IMG/VR virus record: IMGVR_UViG_3300020455_000109
Coordinates: 1 to 20,556 of that record
Direction: 5' to 3' (one strand)
Length of the DNA: 20,556 bases
Origin: a virus
The first letter of the stretch is position 1; each line of letters begins with the position of its first letter. Under the pieces are notes generated by a model. That model was given only the letters and a program-made list of their open reading frames with translations. It made no database searches and was not told the DNA's origin. Position numbers and translations under genes: made by a program. Of this stretch, positions 809-18,799 are shown in pieces.

Positions 809-954
809 TGACTAAAATTTGCGAAACTTGCAAACAAGAATTTGTAATAACCAAGCACCAAACAACGAAACGTTATTGTTCTGCGCCGTGTTCTAAAGGT
901 TATTATAAATCAACAAACAAAAAAATGCGAACAGGAGGAGGAAAGTATGCCTAA
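802..954 (+). CDS. CxxC mini-protein, zinc-ribbon-like (50 aa)
   Basis: Starts at ATG 802 (GAGAGGTAG upstream), overlapping the previous stop, and ends at TAA 952-954. The product has two cysteine pairs, CETC near residues 7-10 and CSAPC near residues 26-30, about 15 residues apart with basic residues between. This is consistent with a small zinc-binding finger. Similar HNH-associated or FPG-like CxxC...CxxC ribbons exist in many phages, but no exact family is recognised. The C-terminus is lysine/glycine-rich and could bind nucleic acid. A second in-frame ATG lies two codons downstream (808), so the start is uncertain by two residues. Confidence 0.55.
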   Translation: MVMTKICETCKQEFVITKHQTTKRYCSAPCSKGYYKSTNKKMRTGGGKYA

Positions 955-1081
955 ATCATACAGAAACCGACGCACAACAGGAAGCTTATTAACTCGTGTA
1001 AGTCTATTAACAATATGGTCAGTAGGCTTAACAATTTTGCTTTTTTGGTGTGTGTTTTTAGATTATTTTTGGTATATTTAA
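947..1081 (+). CDS. Small single-pass membrane protein (44 aa)
   Basis: ATG 947 is preceded by a very strong AGGAGGAGG Shine-Dalgarno (933-941), and the stop is TAA at 1079-1081. The N-terminus is very basic (MPKSYRNRRT), and residues about 18-44 are hydrophobic and aromatic (LTIWSVGLTILLFWCVFLDY), giving one transmembrane helix with N-in topology. The gene overlaps the previous one by 8 nt. The stop codon lies within the start of the promoter-like element at 1080, so this gene closes the first early cluster. The function is unknown. Confidence 0.6.
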   Translation: MPKSYRNRRTTGSLLTRVSLLTIWSVGLTILLFWCVFLDYFWYI

Positions 1082-1111
1082 TGCACTACTGTATTAATAG
1101 GTACACGTTAT
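1080..1111 (+). promoter_or_regulatory. Promoter/operator-like element, copy 1
   Basis: This 32-nt stretch (core ATGCACTACTGTAT, then TAATAGGTACACGTTAT) matches the element at 6436-6467 at 29 of 32 positions. The shared 3' half AATAGGTACACGTTAT is identical. Repeated intergenic elements of this size in T7-like phages are usually promoters of the phage RNA polymerase. Here the element precedes the structured region and the second early gene cluster. A host-type reading also fits: TTGGTA at 1069-1074, 17 nt, TATTAA at 1092-1097. The 5' half is nearly palindromic, so an operator role is also possible. Confidence 0.6.
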
Positions 1112-1137
1112 TGAACTCATATAAAGGTTCAATTTTT
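1110..1137 (+). terminator. Hairpin followed by U-run directly after promoter-like element
   Basis: ATTGAAC (1110-1116) pairs with GTTCAAT (1127-1133) around a 10-nt loop, and the 3' arm runs into five T (1133-1137). The shape is that of an intrinsic terminator or attenuator, but the stem is AT-rich and weak. It lies immediately downstream of the promoter-like element, so it could attenuate transcripts, or it could be the 5' hairpin of the structured region that follows. Confidence 0.35.
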
Positions 1138-1226
1138 ATGAGCGAGGCAATGCCTCCTTCCTTGCAGCTTACTTTTTGTAGCTGTGTGGTCAGCGGAGTG
1201 GTTACCGCTTGCATAGCTTCGCTCTC
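1138..1226 (+). ncRNA. Candidate multibranched structured RNA
   Basis: This gap is locally richer in GC than its surroundings and contains nested inverted repeats. An outer stem GAGCGA (1140-1145) pairs with TCGCTC (1219-1224). Inside are GGC/GCC (1146-1148 with 1152-1154, which can extend to GAGGC/GCCTC in competition with the outer stem), GCAGCT..AC with GT..AGCTGT (1164-1172 with 1178-1185, T5 loop, one bulged T), and AGCGG with CCGCT (1192-1196 with 1205-1209). Together they make a three-arm multibranch fold. It lies between a promoter-like element and the RBS of the gene at 1253, so it could be a small RNA or a 5' leader. It matches no RNA family that I recognise. Confidence 0.4.
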
Positions 1227-1252: not shown

Positions 1253-1414
1253 ATGATTACAGTAGAAACTAGTACAAACAAAGATTTGATTTTCGAAACA
1301 GACAGCGAAGACGCTAACATGCAGCTTGTAGAGTTTGCAATTAGTATTCTTCAATCTTTAGATAATAGAAAACGTTCGTTTACTATCATACGCGACGGAC
1401 AGGAGGTTAAATGA
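1253..1414 (+). CDS. Small hypothetical early protein (53 aa)
   Basis: ATG 1253 with AAGAGGAAA upstream (1242-1250); TGA 1412-1414 overlaps the ATG of the next gene. The product is a 53-residue soluble protein with an acidic N-terminal half (ETDSEDANMQLVEFAI...) and a basic C-terminal strand (NRKRSFTIIRDGQEVK). A beta-alpha-beta arrangement is plausible. No family is recognised. It begins the second early cluster, downstream of the structured region. Confidence 0.55.
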   Translation: MITVETSTNKDLIFETDSEDANMQLVEFAISILQSLDNRKRSFTIIRDGQEVK

Positions 1415-2354: not shown

Positions 2355-2678
2355 ATGTCAAAAGCGCAAAGATTGTTAAAAGCAGTTGAGCACTTTAGGC
2401 TAATAGACGGCGGAATGCATGCACAAGCAATAAGTATTTTTTTGTTTGTAGCTACACATCACCCAAAACCTATCGCGATGCAAACAATAGCAAAAGAAAT
2501 TGGAGTATCGCAGGCTAGTGTTAGTAGGAACGTCGCTTTACTATCATCAACAACTAGATATAGAACAAAGGGACCTAACTTATTAAACGCCGAAGAAGAC
2601 CCTGAAGAGCGCCGATGCAAATTGGTGAGTCTTACAGCTAAAGGAATTAATTTTACAAAAGCTTTATCAGAAATATGA
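2355..2678 (+). CDS. Winged-helix (MarR-like) DNA-binding regulator, candidate lysogeny repressor
   Basis: ATG 2355 is placed by AAAGGGGAG (2341-2348); an upstream in-frame ATG at 2310 lacks a ribosome binding site. The 107-residue product has a helix-turn-helix at about 41-64 (MQTIAKEIGVSQASVSRNVA) followed by a wing ending in EERRCKLVSLTAKG (about 84-97), the hallmark of MarR-type proteins. These usually bind palindromes as dimers. Its last codons overlap the integrase start (ATGA), so the two are co-expressed. Palindromic sites at 3868-3887 and 6437-6450 are plausible operators. MarR relatives are not the usual phage repressors, so a different regulatory role is possible. Family call from sequence; repressor role from context. 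Confidence 0.65.
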   Translation: MSKAQRLLKAVEHFRLIDGGMHAQAISIFLFVATHHPKPIAMQTIAKEIGVSQASVSRNVALLSSTTRYRTKGPNLLNAEEDPEERRCKLVSLTAKGINFTKALSEI

Positions 2679-3688
2679 AAAGAGGAATTAATTCTTGGCA
2701 AGTAAGCGTAACTTATAAGGGTAATCGTCATCGGATTACAATCCACGATGAGTCTAAAGTAGCGCTAGCAAAGCAACTAATGCTTGCTGCTCTGCGTGAC
2801 GGGCTTGATGTAGAAGAGGTCTTGCAACGACAAGGCCTTTTCTCACGGCCGAATATATCCATTAATGCAATTTATGCACAAGTGGTTAAACGTTATTGGG
2901 ATAACGATTCAAAACAAAAAGGTAATGCAAAACAAATTGTGGACTTTTTTGGAACTGAAAGAGATATTACAACAATAAATGAAAGTGATGTTGATGAAAT
3001 GGTAGAGCACTTTCAAGATATGGGAAATTCAAATGCTACTGTTAATCGCAAGCTTGCAGCATTATCGAAAATGCTAACTTATGCAGTGCGCCGAAAGCAC
3101 ATGACTCACAAACCAAGTATTGAATGGTTAAAAGAAGGCAATGCGCGCATACGTTGGGTTGATGAGCTTGAAGAAACAAAAATGTTAAATGTTTTACATC
3201 ATGGAGAAAAAGACAAATTTGCAGATTTTTGTACAATATTAATTGATACTGGTTTTCGTCGTAGTGAGTTAATAAAAGCTAAAACTACTGACATTCTCAG
3301 AAGCCATACTGGAGGAAAAACTTGGTCATTATATGATACTAAAAACAACTTAAATCGAACGATACCTTTGACTGAAAGAGTACAAGCTATATTAAATAAG
3401 TATCACAACAGCGATCGCCCATTTGAAGATATGACTGACCATAGATTAAGAGCAAACTGGGATTTTCTTAGAAACAGAATGAATTTGACAAACGATAAAC
3501 AATTTACGCTTCACTGCTTACGCCATACTTGCGCCTCAAGATTGGTTCAAAGAGGTATACCAATTCTTGTAGTCAAAGAATGGTTAGGTCATAAAACACT
3601 AACGATGACATTACGATATGCACATCTAGCACCTGACAATTTACTTTCAGCTGTTAAAGTGCTAGAACAAGAGCCAATGGCCTCGTGA
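2675..3688 (+). CDS. int: Tyrosine recombinase integrase
   Basis: 337 residues, the normal length for a phage integrase. The N-terminal arm-binding region (1-60) is followed by a core-binding SAM-like domain (about 62-150) and the catalytic domain. Active-site residues are visible: R195 in TGFRRSEL, K223 in the beta hairpin, H280 and R283 in HCLRHTCAS, H306 in WLGHKT and nucleophile Y315 in RYAHLAP. It would insert the phage at a host tRNA-Leu gene, because its last four codons and TGA stop lie inside a complete tRNA-Leu (3679-3766). The ATG overlaps the stop of the upstream regulator. This int position, just ahead of the RNA polymerase gene, is known from temperate T7-like pelagiphages. Confidence 0.95.
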   Translation: MKRGINSWQVSVTYKGNRHRITIHDESKVALAKQLMLAALRDGLDVEEVLQRQGLFSRPNISINAIYAQVVKRYWDNDSKQKGNAKQIVDFFGTERDITTINESDVDEMVEHFQDMGNSNATVNRKLAALSKMLTYAVRRKHMTHKPSIEWLKEGNARIRWVDELEETKMLNVLHHGEKDKFADFCTILIDTGFRRSELIKAKTTDILRSHTGGKTWSLYDTKNNLNRTIPLTERVQAILNKYHNSDRPFEDMTDHRLRANWDFLRNRMNLTNDKQFTLHCLRHTCASRLVQRGIPILVVKEWLGHKTLTMTLRYAHLAPDNLLSAVKVLEQEPMAS

Positions 3689-3766
3689 TGAAATTGGTAG
3701 ACATTCAAGACTTAAAATCTTGTGGAGTTAATCTCCGTACCGGTTCGAGTCCGGTCGAGGCCACCA
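3679..3766 (+). tRNA. tRNA-Leu (anticodon UAA), full length with encoded CCA; overlaps attP
   Basis: A complete 88-nt cloverleaf can be drawn. The acceptor stem GGCCTCG pairs fully with CGAGGCC followed by ACCA. The D stem is GATG/CATT with the AAATTGGTAGA loop, the anticodon stem CAAGA/TCTTG encloses CTTAAAA (anticodon TAA), a long variable arm GGAG/CTCC is typical of leucine tRNAs, and the T arm ACCGG/CCGGT has the TTCGAGT loop. There are no mismatches beyond one D-stem wobble. The first ten bases are also the 3' end of int. The usual reading is an attP carrying the identity segment of a host tRNA. A full tRNA is more than needed to restore an interrupted host gene, so it may also work as a tRNA. 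Confidence 0.9.
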
Positions 3767-3951: not shown

Positions 3952-3997
3952 AACTTTTATATGTGTCCGAATCTTGTGTCTTTTAAAGGAGGTTATA

Positions 3998-6433
3998 ATG
4001 ATTCACTATAATTTAGAAAAAGAGCAACGTGAGCTTGAAGAAGAATCACGATTAAATGGTGGCAAACGAACGCGAGACAGAGACTTTAAGCACGCTGAAA
4101 AGCACTCTGAATCGCTCACAAAGCACGGAAAACGCATAACAGCAGCTACAATTGATATAATTGCTAAAGCACTCGTCGATCGTGTCAATATAACTCATTC
4201 TGGTCCAGTACCACTATCATCACAACTGTTATCTCAAATTGACCCATACATTGCAGCTATTATTACAACGAGATTTATTATAGATGCAATTAGTCAAACA
4301 AATCGTAAATTTACAGCAGCAGCAATATCACTTGGAGGAAAGATTGAAGACGAAATTCGTTTTACATATTGCCATAAAGATAACCCTTATTTAGTCGATA
4401 AAGTTATTAAAGATATTGAAAGCCGTTCTGTTCATTACGGTTATAAAAAGCTAAAGCTATCTCAAGTCCAACAAAAAATTGGTACGGTTTGGAACTTATG
4501 GGACACTAAAAGCAAACTGCATGTTGGAGAAAAGCTAGTTGACATATTTATAGAGAACACAGGATTAGTAAAAATAGAGAAAAAAGCTCATCGAGGTAAA
4601 ACGTACAATTACTTATTAGCTACTGACAAAACAATGGAATGGATTAGTCATTCTAAAAAGTTTAATGAATTTTTAGATCCAGAGTTATTTCCAATGATTG
4701 TTAAGCCTACAACATGGGCTAATCCGTTTAAAGGGGGTTATCGTACGCTAAAAAATCTTTATTTTGTCAAAGGCCATAAGATCACTTCACATCTAAATTA
4801 CTTGCAAGAACTAACTAAGTACGAAATGCCTGTTGTTTACGAAGGTGTTAATGCAATGCAAGATACTAAATGGTCTGTAAATTCGCCAATATTGCTTGTA
4901 TTAAAAACTTGCTTTAATGAAGGCGATAGAAGTAGAGGAAAATTAATTAATAATAATCTTTTAGATTTACCACAAAAACCACACAATATATCAACGGACA
5001 AAAAAGCTTTAAAAGAATGGAAAGCAAAAGCCGTTGTCGTGCATACATCTAACGAAAGAACAAAGTCAAAAAAACTAGCAACTGCTAAAACAATATATCT
5101 TGCTAATAAATTTGATAATCGAGAAATATATTTTCCACATACTACAGATTTTAGAAACAGAGCTTACGCAGTAGTGCCATATCTTAATCCACAAGGCACT
5201 GATTACGCAAAAGCTTTACTTCGATTTTCAGAAGGGATTAGTTTAGGCGATACTGGACCTAGATCACTAGCCATTCATATTGCTAATGTGTTTGGCCAAG
5301 ACAAGTTGCCTTTAGATGAACGAGAAAAATGGACTTTAGACAATACTGATACAATTATTAAATGTAGCAGTGAGCCATTTACAGAACGATTTTGGGAAAC
5401 AGCAGATAAACCGTGGGCATTTTTAGCTGGTTGTATTGAATGGCACGAATACACAAAACATGGCAAAGATTTTAAATCAACATTGCCTGTTGCGTCAGAT
5501 GGCTCATGTAATGGCCTTCAACACTTTAGCGCTATGCTGCGAGATGAAGTAGGAGGTCATGCTGTAAACTTAACGCCTACAAAACAGCCACAAGACATTT
5601 ATGGTGAAGTTTTGCAAGTAGTAGTCAAAAAGTTAGAAAATGCCAAAAAAAGTGTTGCAGAGATGAGTGAGAAAGAGAGGTTCTTAGCTACTGAATGGCT
5701 AGATATGGGCCTAGATAGAGGTGCTTGCAAGCGTTCTGTTATGACTTTGCCTTATGGTTCAACAAGGTATTCAGCAACAGAATTTGTTGATGAGTACATA
5801 CAAAAGCGTATTGACGCTGGAGAAGAATTAAATTTTCAAAACAGACAAGCTTCTTCAATTTACTTAGCAGGAAAAATATGGGATTCAATCGGCGAAGTTG
5901 TTGTTAAAGCTCCTGAAGCAATGGCATGGTTACAAAAAGTTGCTCGTTTGTTATCAGATCAAAAAACACCGGTCTTTTGGATTACTCCTCTAGGTTTTCC
6001 TGTAAGACAAGCTTATTACTCGCAAGCTGAAACAGTATTAAGAACGAAAATGATGGGGAGAATAAGGATTAGGTCTACAACTACTAGAATAGATAAACGA
6101 AGACAAGCTAATGGTATATCACCAAATTTTGTACACGCACTTGACGCAACAATGCTTTATATGACAATTCATTATTGCAAACAACACAACATTCAAGATT
6201 TTGCAATGGTTCATGATTCTTTTGGTACCCACGCAGCAAATCAACAGCAAATGAATATTTGTTTAAGAGAAGCTTTTAGAGATTTATATTCTCAAGTTGA
6301 TCCTTTAGATAATTTCTTAGAAAGTGTGCTGCCAATGATACCTGAAAAACTTCATCGAAAAATTCCTGAACTTCCTGAAAAAGGAAATTTAGATATTAAC
6401 GACGTAATGAAAGCTGACTATTTTTTTTCTTAA
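3998..6433 (+). CDS. T7-like single-subunit DNA-directed RNA polymerase
   Basis: 811 residues against 883 for T7. A TTG further upstream (3974) is open, but ATG 3998 has an AAAGGAGG ribosome binding site (3985-3992). Palm and finger motifs are clear: motif A ASDGSCNGLQHFSAMLRDEV with D501 (T7 D537), motif B CKRSVMTLPYGS with K578 and Y586 (T7 K631, Y639), and motif C MVHDSFGTHA with H739 and D740 (T7 D812). It transcribes middle and late phage genes from its own promoters; the elements at 1080 and 6436 are the best candidates here. The N-terminal domain, which binds promoter and lysozyme in T7, is shorter and diverged. Three differently shaped regulatory sites lie in the 231 nt before it. Identification is secure. 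Confidence 0.97.
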   Translation: MIHYNLEKEQRELEEESRLNGGKRTRDRDFKHAEKHSESLTKHGKRITAATIDIIAKALVDRVNITHSGPVPLSSQLLSQIDPYIAAIITTRFIIDAISQTNRKFTAAAISLGGKIEDEIRFTYCHKDNPYLVDKVIKDIESRSVHYGYKKLKLSQVQQKIGTVWNLWDTKSKLHVGEKLVDIFIENTGLVKIEKKAHRGKTYNYLLATDKTMEWISHSKKFNEFLDPELFPMIVKPTTWANPFKGGYRTLKNLYFVKGHKITSHLNYLQELTKYEMPVVYEGVNAMQDTKWSVNSPILLVLKTCFNEGDRSRGKLINNNLLDLPQKPHNISTDKKALKEWKAKAVVVHTSNERTKSKKLATAKTIYLANKFDNREIYFPHTTDFRNRAYAVVPYLNPQGTDYAKALLRFSEGISLGDTGPRSLAIHIANVFGQDKLPLDEREKWTLDNTDTIIKCSSEPFTERFWETADKPWAFLAGCIEWHEYTKHGKDFKSTLPVASDGSCNGLQHFSAMLRDEVGGHAVNLTPTKQPQDIYGEVLQVVVKKLENAKKSVAEMSEKERFLATEWLDMGLDRGACKRSVMTLPYGSTRYSATEFVDEYIQKRIDAGEELNFQNRQASSIYLAGKIWDSIGEVVVKAPEAMAWLQKVARLLSDQKTPVFWITPLGFPVRQAYYSQAETVLRTKMMGRIRIRSTTTRIDKRRQANGISPNFVHALDATMLYMTIHYCKQHNIQDFAMVHDSFGTHAANQQQMNICLREAFRDLYSQVDPLDNFLESVLPMIPEKLHRKIPELPEKGNLDINDVMKADYFFS

Positions 6434-6435
6434 TT

Positions 6436-6467
6436 AATACACTAGTGTATCAATAGGTACACGTTAT
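6436..6467 (+). promoter_or_regulatory. Promoter/operator-like element, copy 2, ahead of the replication genes
   Basis: Identical to the element at 1080-1111 in 29 of 32 positions. Its 5' half, ATACACTAGTGTAT (6437-6450), is a perfect 14-bp palindrome, and its 3' half is AATAGGTACACGTTAT. It sits in the 59-nt gap between the RNA polymerase and SSB genes, where T7-like phages place promoters for the replication block. No convincing -35 box lies 17 nt upstream, which favours recognition by the phage polymerase. A dimeric repressor could also bind the palindrome. Confidence 0.65.
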
Positions 6468-7062: not shown

Positions 7063-7483
7063 TAGACCACTTACAGTAAAAGCTAGGAAATTAGGATTTA
7101 GATCAGGATTTGAAGTTAAAATTGCAAAACAATTAGATGCTGCAAAAGTCTTGTATACGTACGAAACAAAAACAATTCATTATATAGTGCCAGAAAAAAA
7201 GGCAACATATAGACCAGATTTTATTTTAGATAATGGAATACTTATCGAAGTAAAAGGTTTGTTTCAAACTAAAGACAGACAAAAACATCTTTTAATTAAA
7301 GAGCAATATCCTGATTTAGATATTCGGTTTGTATTTAGTAATAGCAAAATAAAAATTTCAAAAAAATCAAAAACAACATACGGCGCATGGTGCGACCATC
7401 ACGGCATACTATACGCAGATGAAAAGGTTCCAAAGGAGTGGTTAAATGTTAAACGCAGGAAGAAAAAGAAGAGAAAAAACTGA
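7046..7483 (+). CDS. Endonuclease I, T7 gp3-like Holliday junction resolvase
   Basis: The frame is open from 7022, but the product matches T7 endonuclease I (149 aa) when started at ATG 7046 (145 aa). Catalytic residues are conserved with a constant offset of three: E23 in FRSGFE (T7 E20), D58 in YRPDFIL (T7 D55), and E68 and K70 in LIEVKGL (T7 E65, K67). The KHLLIKEQYPDLDIRFVFS region and the TTYGAWCDHHGI tail also correspond. It cleaves branched DNA and in T7 helps break down host DNA. The C-terminus is lysine-rich. It overlaps both neighbours (SSB, lysozyme-like), and its RBS lies within the acidic tail of SSB. Confidence 0.93.
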   Translation: MTTNFNRPLTVKARKLGFRSGFEVKIAKQLDAAKVLYTYETKTIHYIVPEKKATYRPDFILDNGILIEVKGLFQTKDRQKHLLIKEQYPDLDIRFVFSNSKIKISKKSKTTYGAWCDHHGILYADEKVPKEWLNVKRRKKKKRKN

Positions 7484-7796
7484 GTCATTAGTTGTATATC
7501 GGACTATGAGTGATGACTCAGTGCCACTTACAATGCATGACTTAACAAAAGTCCAATTAGAACTAGGTCATTTAGGTATTAGTTACCATTACGTCATTTT
7601 ATTGAATGGCCAAATAGAAAAAGGAATTGAAATTGATGAAGTTGGTATTGGTGAAAATACTGATGTAAGTGTTTGTGTTATTGGAGGCAAAAAAAATAAA
7701 AAGAAAATGACTGATGAGCAATCAGACACTTTTAAATTAATTAAAGATTTTGTTTACAAAAAATATTCACTGTCTGGCGAGGTTAAATACGCATGA
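7446..7796 (+). CDS. T7 lysozyme (gp3.5)-like protein lacking zinc ligands; probable RNA polymerase regulator
   Basis: ATG 7446 has CAAAGGAG upstream. Of 116 residues, about 12-107 align by eye with T7 lysozyme (151 aa): LGISYHYVILLNGQIEKG corresponds to the VGYHFIIKRDGTVEAG region, and VSVCVIGG to IGVCLVGG. T7 zinc ligands are H17, H122 and C130. Here the H17 position is Y18 (LVVYRTMSD), and the protein ends (SGEVKYA, TGA) just where the T7 LRAHHEVAPKACPSF segment would begin, so both other ligands and the catalytic lysine are absent. Amidase activity is therefore unlikely. T7 lysozyme also inhibits T7 RNA polymerase, and this second role may be what is kept. The stop overlaps the kinase ATG. 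Confidence 0.75.
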   Translation: MLNAGRKRREKTESLVVYRTMSDDSVPLTMHDLTKVQLELGHLGISYHYVILLNGQIEKGIEIDEVGIGENTDVSVCVIGGKKNKKKMTDEQSDTFKLIKDFVYKKYSLSGEVKYA

Positions 7797-15282: not shown

Positions 15283-16860
15283 ATGAATTTTTTAGATAAA
15301 ACAGCTAAAGAGCGGTACGAATCTATGCGCGAACATAGAGAGCATTTTTTAAAACGTGGACGTGAGTGTTCAGAATTAACTTTACCAAGTGTTTTACCAG
15401 ATGACTCTATGAGTAGTTCAAGTGATTTGTACACACCGTATCAATCTGTTGGTGCAAGAGGCGTTAATAATCTGGCGTCAAAACTATTACTACTTTTATT
15501 ACCTCCAAACCAGCCGTTTTTCAGATTAGTAACTGACGGCAAAACTAACGAACAAATGCAGCAGTCGGCAGAAATGAAGACTGAAATAGAAAAGTCGCTA
15601 GCAAAAATTGAGCGCGAAGTAATGAGTGAAATAGAAGCTAGTGCTATTCGTGTTCCAGTATTTGAAGCTCTTAAACATTTAATTGTAACTGGCAATGTAC
15701 TTATCCACATGCCTAAAAAAGGAAACATGAGAGTTTTTCCTTTAAGCCAATTTACATGTCGAAGAGACCCTGAAGGAAATATTTTAGAATTAATAGTAAA
15801 AGAAAGTGTTTCACCATTATCTTTTGATGAAGAAGACAGAGCTATAATAATGCATGGTGAGCAAGACACGCCTTCAACAGCCGCAGTAGATGTATATACA
15901 AAGATTTGTTTAATAGACAAAGACAAATTTTATGTTTGCCAAGAAGCAAATGATTACAAGATTCCAAAATCGGAAGGTTATTATAAATCAGAAGATATGC
16001 CGTGGACCGTCCTTCGTATGATTAGAATGGATAACGAAGACTATGGAAGAAGCTACGTTGAAGAATATTTAGGTGATTTAAAATCACTTGAAGGCTTATC
16101 TCAATCACTTGTAGAATCAGCAGCAGCTTCGTCGAAAGTTGTATTTATGGTTCGTCCAAATTCAACTACTAAAAAACGAGATTTAGCTATAGCACAAAAT
16201 GGCGATATAATAACTGGGCAACAAGATGACGTTGCTGTGTTACAAACAGATAAACAATACGATTTAAGAGTAGTTGCTGACGCAATACAAAGATTTGAAG
16301 AAAGAATGAGTTTTGCATTTTTACTTAATGCTGCTGTTCAAAGAGATGCTGAAAGAGTAACTGCTCAAGAAATAAGGTATATGGCTAACGAATTAGAAAC
16401 TGCTTTAGGTGGTGTGTATTCGTTATTATCTCAAGAATTTCAATTACCACTTGTACGAATACTATTAAAACGTATGAGTGCAAAAGGATCAATTCCAAAA
16501 CTACCAAAAGGACTAGTGCGTCCTACTATCATAACTGGAGTAGAAGCGCTTGGCAGAGGAAATGATTTACAAAAGTTAAGAGAATTTACAATGGAAATAC
16601 AAAACATTGCTCAAATTAACCCAGAAGTAGTACAGATGCTAAATCTAACTGATTTAATATCTCGTATTGCAACTGGTCACGGTATTGATACTGAGGGTTT
16701 AATTAAGTCTCAAGATCAATTGCAAGCTGAAGCTCAACAACAAGCTGAAGCGCAACAACAAAGTCAGATGATGGACGCTGCAGTTAATCCACAAACGATG
16801 AATACTGCTGCAAAAGCTATCGCTGACAACATTCAACAAGAAGGAGTAGAAGTTGGTTGA
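15283..16860 (+). CDS. Portal (head-tail connector) protein, T7 gp8-like
   Basis: 525 residues, close to T7 gp8 (536). The N-terminal RYESMREHREHFLKRGRECSELTLPSVLP and the segment GARGVNNLASKLLLLLLPPNQPFFRL (about 47-72, in two parts) are typical of podovirus connectors. PWTVLRMIRMDNEDYGRSYVEEYLGDL and the FAFLLNAAVQRDAERVTAQEIR region match the conserved core and crown. A dodecamer of this protein forms the DNA-packaging vertex. The C-terminus is glutamine/alanine-rich and includes an imperfect six-codon tandem duplication (16723-16758). Start at ATG 15283 with a weak RBS, 4 nt after the preceding stop, so coupling is likely. Confidence 0.95.
   Translation: MNFLDKTAKERYESMREHREHFLKRGRECSELTLPSVLPDDSMSSSSDLYTPYQSVGARGVNNLASKLLLLLLPPNQPFFRLVTDGKTNEQMQQSAEMKTEIEKSLAKIEREVMSEIEASAIRVPVFEALKHLIVTGNVLIHMPKKGNMRVFPLSQFTCRRDPEGNILELIVKESVSPLSFDEEDRAIIMHGEQDTPSTAAVDVYTKICLIDKDKFYVCQEANDYKIPKSEGYYKSEDMPWTVLRMIRMDNEDYGRSYVEEYLGDLKSLEGLSQSLVESAAASSKVVFMVRPNSTTKKRDLAIAQNGDIITGQQDDVAVLQTDKQYDLRVVADAIQRFEERMSFAFLLNAAVQRDAERVTAQEIRYMANELETALGGVYSLLSQEFQLPLVRILLKRMSAKGSIPKLPKGLVRPTIITGVEALGRGNDLQKLREFTMEIQNIAQINPEVVQMLNLTDLISRIATGHGIDTEGLIKSQDQLQAEAQQQAEAQQQSQMMDAAVNPQTMNTAAKAIADNIQQEGVEVG
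16723..16758 (+). repeat. 18-bp tandem duplication inside the portal gene
   Basis: Two head-to-tail copies of an 18-nt unit (CAAGCTGAAGCTCAACAA, then the same with one T-to-G change) encode QAEAQQ twice near the connector C-terminus. The repeat keeps frame. It looks like a recent slippage duplication in a region that tolerates length changes. Confidence 0.8.
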
Positions 16861-17614
16861 ACAAGTAGAAATAAAAACAGAGGAGACTTCTTCAGTACAG
16901 CCTGAAGAGACTACTCAACAAACTCCAGAAGCTAAACCTGAAAGACCAAATTGGTTGCCAGAAAAATTTGCATCAGCAGAAGATATGGCAAAAGCTTACG
17001 GCGAACTTGAAAAGAAACAAAGTCAAGCCGAAGTACCAGAGGTAGAGGAAAAACAAGAAACTCCAAAGCCCCAAGAAAATGATTTGGAAATTGAAAAAGC
17101 AGCAGAAGATGCTGTGGCTTCAGCTGGTTTAAATATGGAAACACTCCAAGCAGAATACGATTCTACTGGAGAACTAAAAGACACATCTTATGATGCTCTT
17201 GCAAAAGCAGGAGTAAGTAAAGAGTATGTCGACGCTTTCATTGCTGGTCAACAAGCGATTGCGGACCAAATTTCTAATAGTGTAAAAGCCACTGTTGGAG
17301 GTAATGAAAGTTATACAGAAATTGTTAATTGGGCCAAAAGCAACTTAAGTGCACAAGAACAGAATGCGTATAACAACGCAGTAAATTCAAATGACTTAAG
17401 TACGGTACAATTAGCAGTTGCAGGTTTGCAATCTCGTTATCAAGCGGCTAATGGCACTGATCCAAAATTAGTGTCAGGACAAGCTTCTAATAATGCAGGT
17501 AATGGGTATCAATCATGGGCTCAAGTAACAGAAGCCATGAATGATCCACGTTATGCAAAAGATGCGGCTTATCGTACTGAAGTACAGAAACGAATAGGCG
17601 CAAGTAAACTGTAA
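16853..17614 (+). CDS. Capsid assembly scaffolding protein, T7 gp9-like
   Basis: 253 residues. No ATG fits: the start is TTG 16853, supported by AAGGAG (16840-16845) 7 nt upstream and by an 8-nt overlap with the portal stop. The product is very acidic at the N-terminus (EQVEIKTEETSSVQPEETTQ), contains the PNWLPEKFASAEDMAKAYGELEKK segment (about 28-50) found in podovirus scaffolds, a helical middle, and a basic C-terminal helix (YAKDAAYRTEVQKRIGAS) like the capsid-contacting end of other scaffolds. It directs procapsid assembly between connector and major capsid protein and is absent from mature heads. Confidence 0.9.
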   Translation: MVEQVEIKTEETSSVQPEETTQQTPEAKPERPNWLPEKFASAEDMAKAYGELEKKQSQAEVPEVEEKQETPKPQENDLEIEKAAEDAVASAGLNMETLQAEYDSTGELKDTSYDALAKAGVSKEYVDAFIAGQQAIADQISNSVKATVGGNESYTEIVNWAKSNLSAQEQNAYNNAVNSNDLSTVQLAVAGLQSRYQAANGTDPKLVSGQASNNAGNGYQSWAQVTEAMNDPRYAKDAAYRTEVQKRIGASKL

Positions 17615-18767: not shown

Positions 18768-18799
18768 AGAGGAGAGGCGAAAGTCTCTCCTCTTTTTTT
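18768..18799 (+). terminator. Intrinsic terminator after the major capsid gene
   Basis: A perfect 9-bp stem, AGAGGAGAG (18768-18776) with CTCTCCTCT (18785-18793), closes an 8-nt loop GCGAAAGT and is followed by seven T (18793-18799). This is a textbook rho-independent terminator, 27 nt after the capsid stop, at the position of T-phi in T7. It should reduce transcription into the tail genes. Confidence 0.92.

Follow-up and report, generated by a model that had tools for sequence, protein, structure and literature searches.

What is the role of the GC-rich, strongly folded RNA that lies between a promoter and a small early gene in a temperate T7-like phage? An earlier note on this DNA had picked out positions 1110-1226 as a structured RNA candidate and had offered three functions for it, namely a small regulatory RNA, a decoy and a leader controlling the second early cluster. 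Our analysis supports this interpretation in part, with the leader as the best fit of the three, given the fold, the order of promoter, element and gene, and the compensatory changes found in a relative. Of the two outcomes that the note had named as refuting it, a folding energy no better than that of shuffled sequence and a lack of compensatory changes in relatives, neither was observed.

The window, that is, the whole stretch of 20,556 nucleotides that was analysed, is a 20.6-kb fragment of a podovirus of the HTVC019P type, in which replication and head genes follow the RNA polymerase (RNAP) gene. Judged by RNAP, its closest relatives in culture belong to Votkovvirus, namely the pelagiphages HTVC200P and HTVC119P, at about 50% identity, and its capsid gene region shares 70-78% nucleotide identity with Pelagivirus and other pelagiphages. 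A SAR11 bacterium is the presumed host, given these pelagiphage relatives. The overlap between tRNA-Leu and the integrase end probably reflects the way in which phages of the HTVC019P type arrange their attachment site; matches to the tRNA occur also in the related contig L003, in L006 and L038 and, on the other strand, in L064. A tRNA-like identity of the element itself was rejected, as ARAGORN finds only the tRNA-Leu. The element (1110-1224) is intergenic, lying between a hydrophobic ORF and an early gene for a 53-aa product, upstream of the ribosome-binding site (RBS) of the latter, and its three-way junction ends 28 nt before the start of that gene. L003 and L004 carry homologues of the 53-aa gene in this position and share with the window the order hydrophobic ORF, promoter, structured gap, 53-aa gene, second small gene, MazG-like gene, MarR-like gene, integrase, tRNA-Leu and polymerase. 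Pfam and PHROG matches to the 53-aa product were sought and none was found, and as a protein query against phages it gave zero matches. The features are collected in the table.

Features of the leader region and its surroundings in the window, and hammerhead motifs in the early regions of Pelagivirus phages
Feature	Record	Position	Strand	Remarks
Hydrophobic ORF, 44 aa	window	947-1081	+	directly upstream of the promoter and leader; L003 and L004 have a similar ORF there (synteny anchor)
Phage-RNA-polymerase-type promoter CACTACTGTATTAATAGGTACA	window	1084-1105	+	repeated motif
Hairpin A	window	1110-1133	+	8 bp, AU-rich, 8-nt loop, then a run of T4-5
P1, 5' strand	window	1140-1153	+	1140-1148 (9 bp with 1216-1224), mismatch A1149 (A-A with A1215), 1150-1153 (4 pairs with 1211-1214)
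Motif CTCCTTCC	window	1154-1161	+	junction J1/2 (1154-1159) and first two P2 bases; identical in L003
P2 hairpin	window	about 1160-1189	+	hairpin in window and L003, sequence not conserved
P3 hairpin AGCGG-AGTGGTTA-CCGCT	window	1192-1209	+	pair probabilities 0.73-0.84
P1, 3' strand	window	1211-1224	+	1211-1214, mismatch A1215, 1216-1224
Early gene, 53 aa	window	1253-1414	+	ORF list; RBS AAGAGGAAA just upstream; directly behind the leader
Integrase	window	2675-3688		
tRNA-Leu (TAA), complete	window	3679-3766		overlaps integrase end; ARAGORN
Single-subunit RNA polymerase	window	3974-6433		
Hammerheads	L065 (HTVC168P)	494, 1226	+	
Hammerheads	L066 (HTVC109P)	563, 1111, 2325	+	
Hammerhead	L067 (HTVC019P)	2954	+	
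Hammerhead	L246 (HTVC304P)	2437	+	
Hammerhead	L247 (HTVC031P)	1301	+	
Hammerhead	L248 (HTVC142P)	669	+	
Hammerhead	L249 (HTVC022P)	2303	+	
Hammerheads	L250 (Eistla)	1294, 1765, 2548	+	
Hammerhead	L252 (HTVC201P)	2268	+	
Hammerhead	L253 (HTVC131P)	2664	+	

The promoter-like element that had been noticed ahead of the gap turned out to be a repeated promoter of the phage type rather than a sigma-70 site. A second copy at 6440-6461 stands just behind the RNAP gene, and two copies with at most 3 mismatches compare with 0.00 expected by chance in the window. In L003 and L004 this motif also stands ahead of the 53-aa gene, and many related contigs have it after the RNAP gene, a distribution that makes it most likely the promoter of the phage's own polymerase. 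By analogy with T7 promoters, transcription would likely start at G1100, and 1110-1224 would then most likely fall within the first ~125 nt of the transcript. The copy at 6440 has only a short leader before a gene for an ssDNA-binding protein, too short for a comparable structure. As an observation in its own right, the form CACTASTGTATYAATAGGTACA at 1084-1105 and 6440-6461 has only these two close copies within the fragment, and further promoters, if present, must be more divergent.

The minimum free energy (MFE) fold of about 1140-1224 (to 1226) is a three-way junction of -37.6 kcal/mol, in which the stem P1 closes two hairpins, P2 and P3. P1 consists of 13 pairs with one mismatch, has pair probabilities of 0.97-1.0 and could stack on P2 or P3. 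The inverted repeats thus sit where the earlier note had placed them, with corrections: its outer stem is present but, at 6 bp, had been drawn too short, and the three hairpins that it enclosed are two in the preferred fold. The third, GAGGCAATGCCTC (1144-1156), was ruled out, for it uses P1 bases and is missing from the MFE fold. The separate hairpin upstream of the junction, hairpin A, was confirmed, though it is weak; it has a shorter version in L003, is absent from L004 and has no compensatory support. The locally raised GC content was likewise borne out, at 54% in 1140-1224 compared with 33% in the genes on either side and 35% window-wide; no more than 0.23% of 85-mers reach such a GC content.

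The element is more stable than shuffled sequence, with z of -4.41 for 1140-1226 and -3.90 for 1100-1235, which includes the upstream hairpin, and in neither case did any of 200 shuffled sequences fold as stably. Both strands were also scanned in 1864 stretches of 88 nt, with z taken from 30 shuffles. The element had the lowest MFE of all, but by z it ranked only in the top 1-2% (-3.5 for 1139-1226; -4.3 for an overlapping one at 1101). Several coding stretches outdo it, and because these reach -5 to -6, a low folding energy does not by itself decide the matter in this genome and the significance of the fold from the single sequence is moderate. Three in-frame stretches on the plus strand (16585-16680, 17220-17320 and 7437-7525) have z of -4.8 to -5.8; either they hold structures in their own right or z-scores alone are unreliable here. 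Elsewhere in the window, a strong terminator-like hairpin lies behind the capsid gene at 18768-18793, with an 11-bp stem (AGAGGAGAGGC/GTCTCTCCTCT), a GAAA loop and a following T run, and the surrounding 96 nt have a z of -6.4.

Most of the case for the fold is carried by compensatory changes in L003, whose RNAP is 89% identical to that of the window. The same fold forms there, with a 13-pair P1, two hairpins and a z of -7.2. It retains P1 and P3 together with two motifs of unpaired bases, CTCCTTCC and TGGTTA, that are conserved; in P3 the loop TGGTTA and CCGC are kept, whereas the closing pair changes from A-U to U-A. All five variable pairs of P1 and P3 are still paired in L003, and in three of them both bases have changed (A-U to U-G, G-C to A-U and A-U to U-A). 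With random substitutions at the same positions, every pair survived in about 1% of trials (chance about 0.01). These counts come from two sequences aligned by hand along the helices, since MAFFT aligns P2 and P3 wrongly. In both sequences, folding is stronger on the plus than on the minus strand.

In L004, whose RNAP is 81% identical, an unrelated hairpin with a z of -5.8 stands between the same promoter and gene (2549-2640); it has ~28 bp in two segments and a 22-nt pyrimidine-rich loop, and looks like an RNase III substrate. A DNA similarity search of 50,697 phage records gave no homologue of the element. By DNA-pattern search, the promoter precedes such a leader among viral contigs only in those of L003 and L004, and among genome contigs in none, while searches with MazG in viral and genome contigs turned up distant relatives of that protein and no further recognisable copy of the locus. 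Other database relatives either do not have this region or differ there. A separate strong hairpin, GAGACAAGGAAGCA...TGCTTTCTTGTCTC, was seen in an early intergenic gap of HTVC200P at about 1590-1645 (z -5.8), just before CACTAGTGGATT, which resembles part of the phage promoter.

The explanation that we favour, and to which we give roughly an even chance of being right, is that the element is a cis-acting structured leader of an early or middle polycistronic mRNA, stabilising the transcript or helping to process it, in an HTVC019P-type phage related to SAR11 phages. The phage polymerase would start at about 1100, as the repeated promoter motif suggests, and the first ~125 nt of its transcript would fold into the hairpin and the three-way junction. 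The rigid fold would guard the 5' end of the mRNA, be cut by a host double-strand RNase, or both, such that the long early transcript made by the host enzyme and the transcript made by the phage enzyme would both yield a stable mRNA. That mRNA would begin just upstream of the RBS of the gene at 1253 and serve this gene and those behind it. Because only two sequences share the fold, namely the window and L003, its function is something that we infer, as are the transcription of the leader, its processing and its stabilising effect. Different folds in one slot, as in the window and L004, suit a generic role such as stability or double-strand cutting better than the binding of a specific ligand.

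Two classes of T7 structure offer precedents for such a leader. The RNase III hairpins of the T7 early region (R0.3, R0.5, R0.7, R1 and R1.1) resemble the element in being structured intergenic or leader RNA just upstream of an RBS. However, they are long irregular hairpins, with a double-stranded stem of about two turns as a mark of the type, whereas the element is a three-way junction that bears conserved unpaired motifs and follows immediately on a phage promoter; the long hairpin of L004 is nearer to the T7 type. The T7 early mRNA is cut at five RNase III-type sites (PMC4858673). A comparable role for the element is proposed by this analogy. Two points stand against the explanation that we favour: with 13 pairs, P1 is a short stem by the standard of classical bacterial RNase III sites, stacking of helices apart, and the conserved unpaired motifs exceed the needs of a mere stability element. 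The other class is represented by the 5' leader hairpin of T7 gene 10, on a transcript of the T7-type phage polymerase. There too a stem-loop lies close to where a phage-polymerase transcript begins, but the fold in the window is much larger, and the other promoter copy of this phage is followed by only a short leader.

The conserved junction raises the alternative of a translational switch, in which its pyrimidine-rich CTCCTT would pair with a Shine-Dalgarno (SD) site, either that of the gene behind it or those of other mRNAs, and access would be under the control of the fold. CTCCTTCC resembles an anti-SD sequence, is complementary to AGGAG-type sites and remains identical in L003 while the helices change, the unpaired bases of flanks, junction and loop being identical at 26 of 29 positions against 27 of 38 in the helices. 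CCTCC is also present in the L004 loop. However, the complementarity is a weak argument because any CCTCC complements any SD site, and with the leader folded together with the gene start, CTCCTTCC is not paired with the SD site in the window or in L003. A switch of this kind is possible but, in our view, unlikely. Pairing of CTCCTTCC with SD sites might also give the favoured leader an additional part in translation, which the same joint folds do not support.

We consider it distinctly unlikely that the element acts in trans, as a small RNA or as a decoy against, for example, ribosomes, an RNase or a defence system. A compact, stable fold with conserved unpaired bases and a promoter of its own would suit such an RNA, as the earlier note had envisaged. 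Yet a scan found no terminator-like site behind the element at 1224-1253, hairpin A lies upstream of the junction and not behind it, and the next gene starts a short way downstream; with no terminator between structure and gene, the element is joined to the mRNA unless it is processed. Nor does any described family match it: a covariance-model search of the window with Rfam 15 gave no family at the element, at gathering score or at E up to 10, and the same search of L003 gave only chance-level matches far below gathering scores.

The three-way junction also recalls hammerhead ribozymes, which have been described between the genes of phages and in a region of A. tumefaciens that holds ardA, marR and integrase (PMC3088659). 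We found 15 hammerhead motifs in the early regions of 10 phages of the sister genus Pelagivirus, all on the plus, coding strand, with a complete catalytic core and all helices, in stem I-open or stem II-open forms. By the annotation tables, 12 of the 15 lie wholly inside intergenic gaps, and the other three (HTVC109P 563 and 1111, HTVC201P 2268) overlap an annotated gene end. As a control, the descriptor gave two implausible matches in 1.3 Mb of unrelated loci; in a permissive-threshold scan of the HTVC168P stretch, the hammerheads of that phage fell below Rfam gathering thresholds. These motifs look like self-cleaving punctuation of early transcripts. We found no paper linking pelagiphages and hammerheads in the open literature (most subscription journals lay outside this search).

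The element shares with hammerheads (RF02276 type II, RF02275 HH9 and relatives) a three-way junction among the early genes of related temperate T7-like phages. In contrast, it has neither the catalytic core CUGANGA/GAAA, for which a descriptor search found no match in the window, L003 or L004, nor a match to any hammerhead model, and a hammerhead identity was rejected. A broader proposal, that the junction with CTCCTTCC and TGGTTA represents a new functional RNA class (a self-cleaving ribozyme or a ribosome- or SD-binding RNA) that replaces the hammerheads of the sister phages, strikes us as improbable and speculative. That the element is specifically a self-cleaving ribozyme of an undescribed class we hold to be very unlikely: the conserved single-stranded motifs of the junction, and its position of a kind where sister phages carry hammerheads, would fit, but no Rfam ribozyme family matches even at the permissive E value, only two sequences are at hand and L004 is completely different.

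Equally improbable is a chance fold in a GC-rich intergenic patch; the low z of coding stretches and the small number of homologues (two) would allow it, whereas the retention in L003 of every variable pair in the same register, together with the extreme GC content and MFE, argues against it. A translated leader peptide with incidental RNA structure is hardly credible and was rejected, for although a 44-aa frame behind a possible RBS (AAAGG) starts at ATG 1138 and L003 has an ATG at the same place behind AAGGGG, its 25-aa frame ending in the RBS of the next gene, L003 has one base fewer before TGCCTCC, such that the frame is not conserved and the peptides differ, and its changes preserve pairs rather than codons.

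A cis-acting leader also accords with what is seen in the wider lineage. The hammerheads at the boundaries of early genes in Pelagivirus make it plausible that RNA is cut there in this group, and the simplest common reading is that the hammerheads of Pelagivirus, the long hairpin of L004 and the three-way junction of the window and L003 all serve to set and protect mRNA ends at early gene boundaries. SAR11 phages rank with the most abundant marine viruses, and to our knowledge the processing of their early mRNA has been little studied. The three-way-junction leader, the L004 hairpin in the same slot and the Pelagivirus hammerheads together suggest that these small genomes punctuate their early transcripts with RNA structure.
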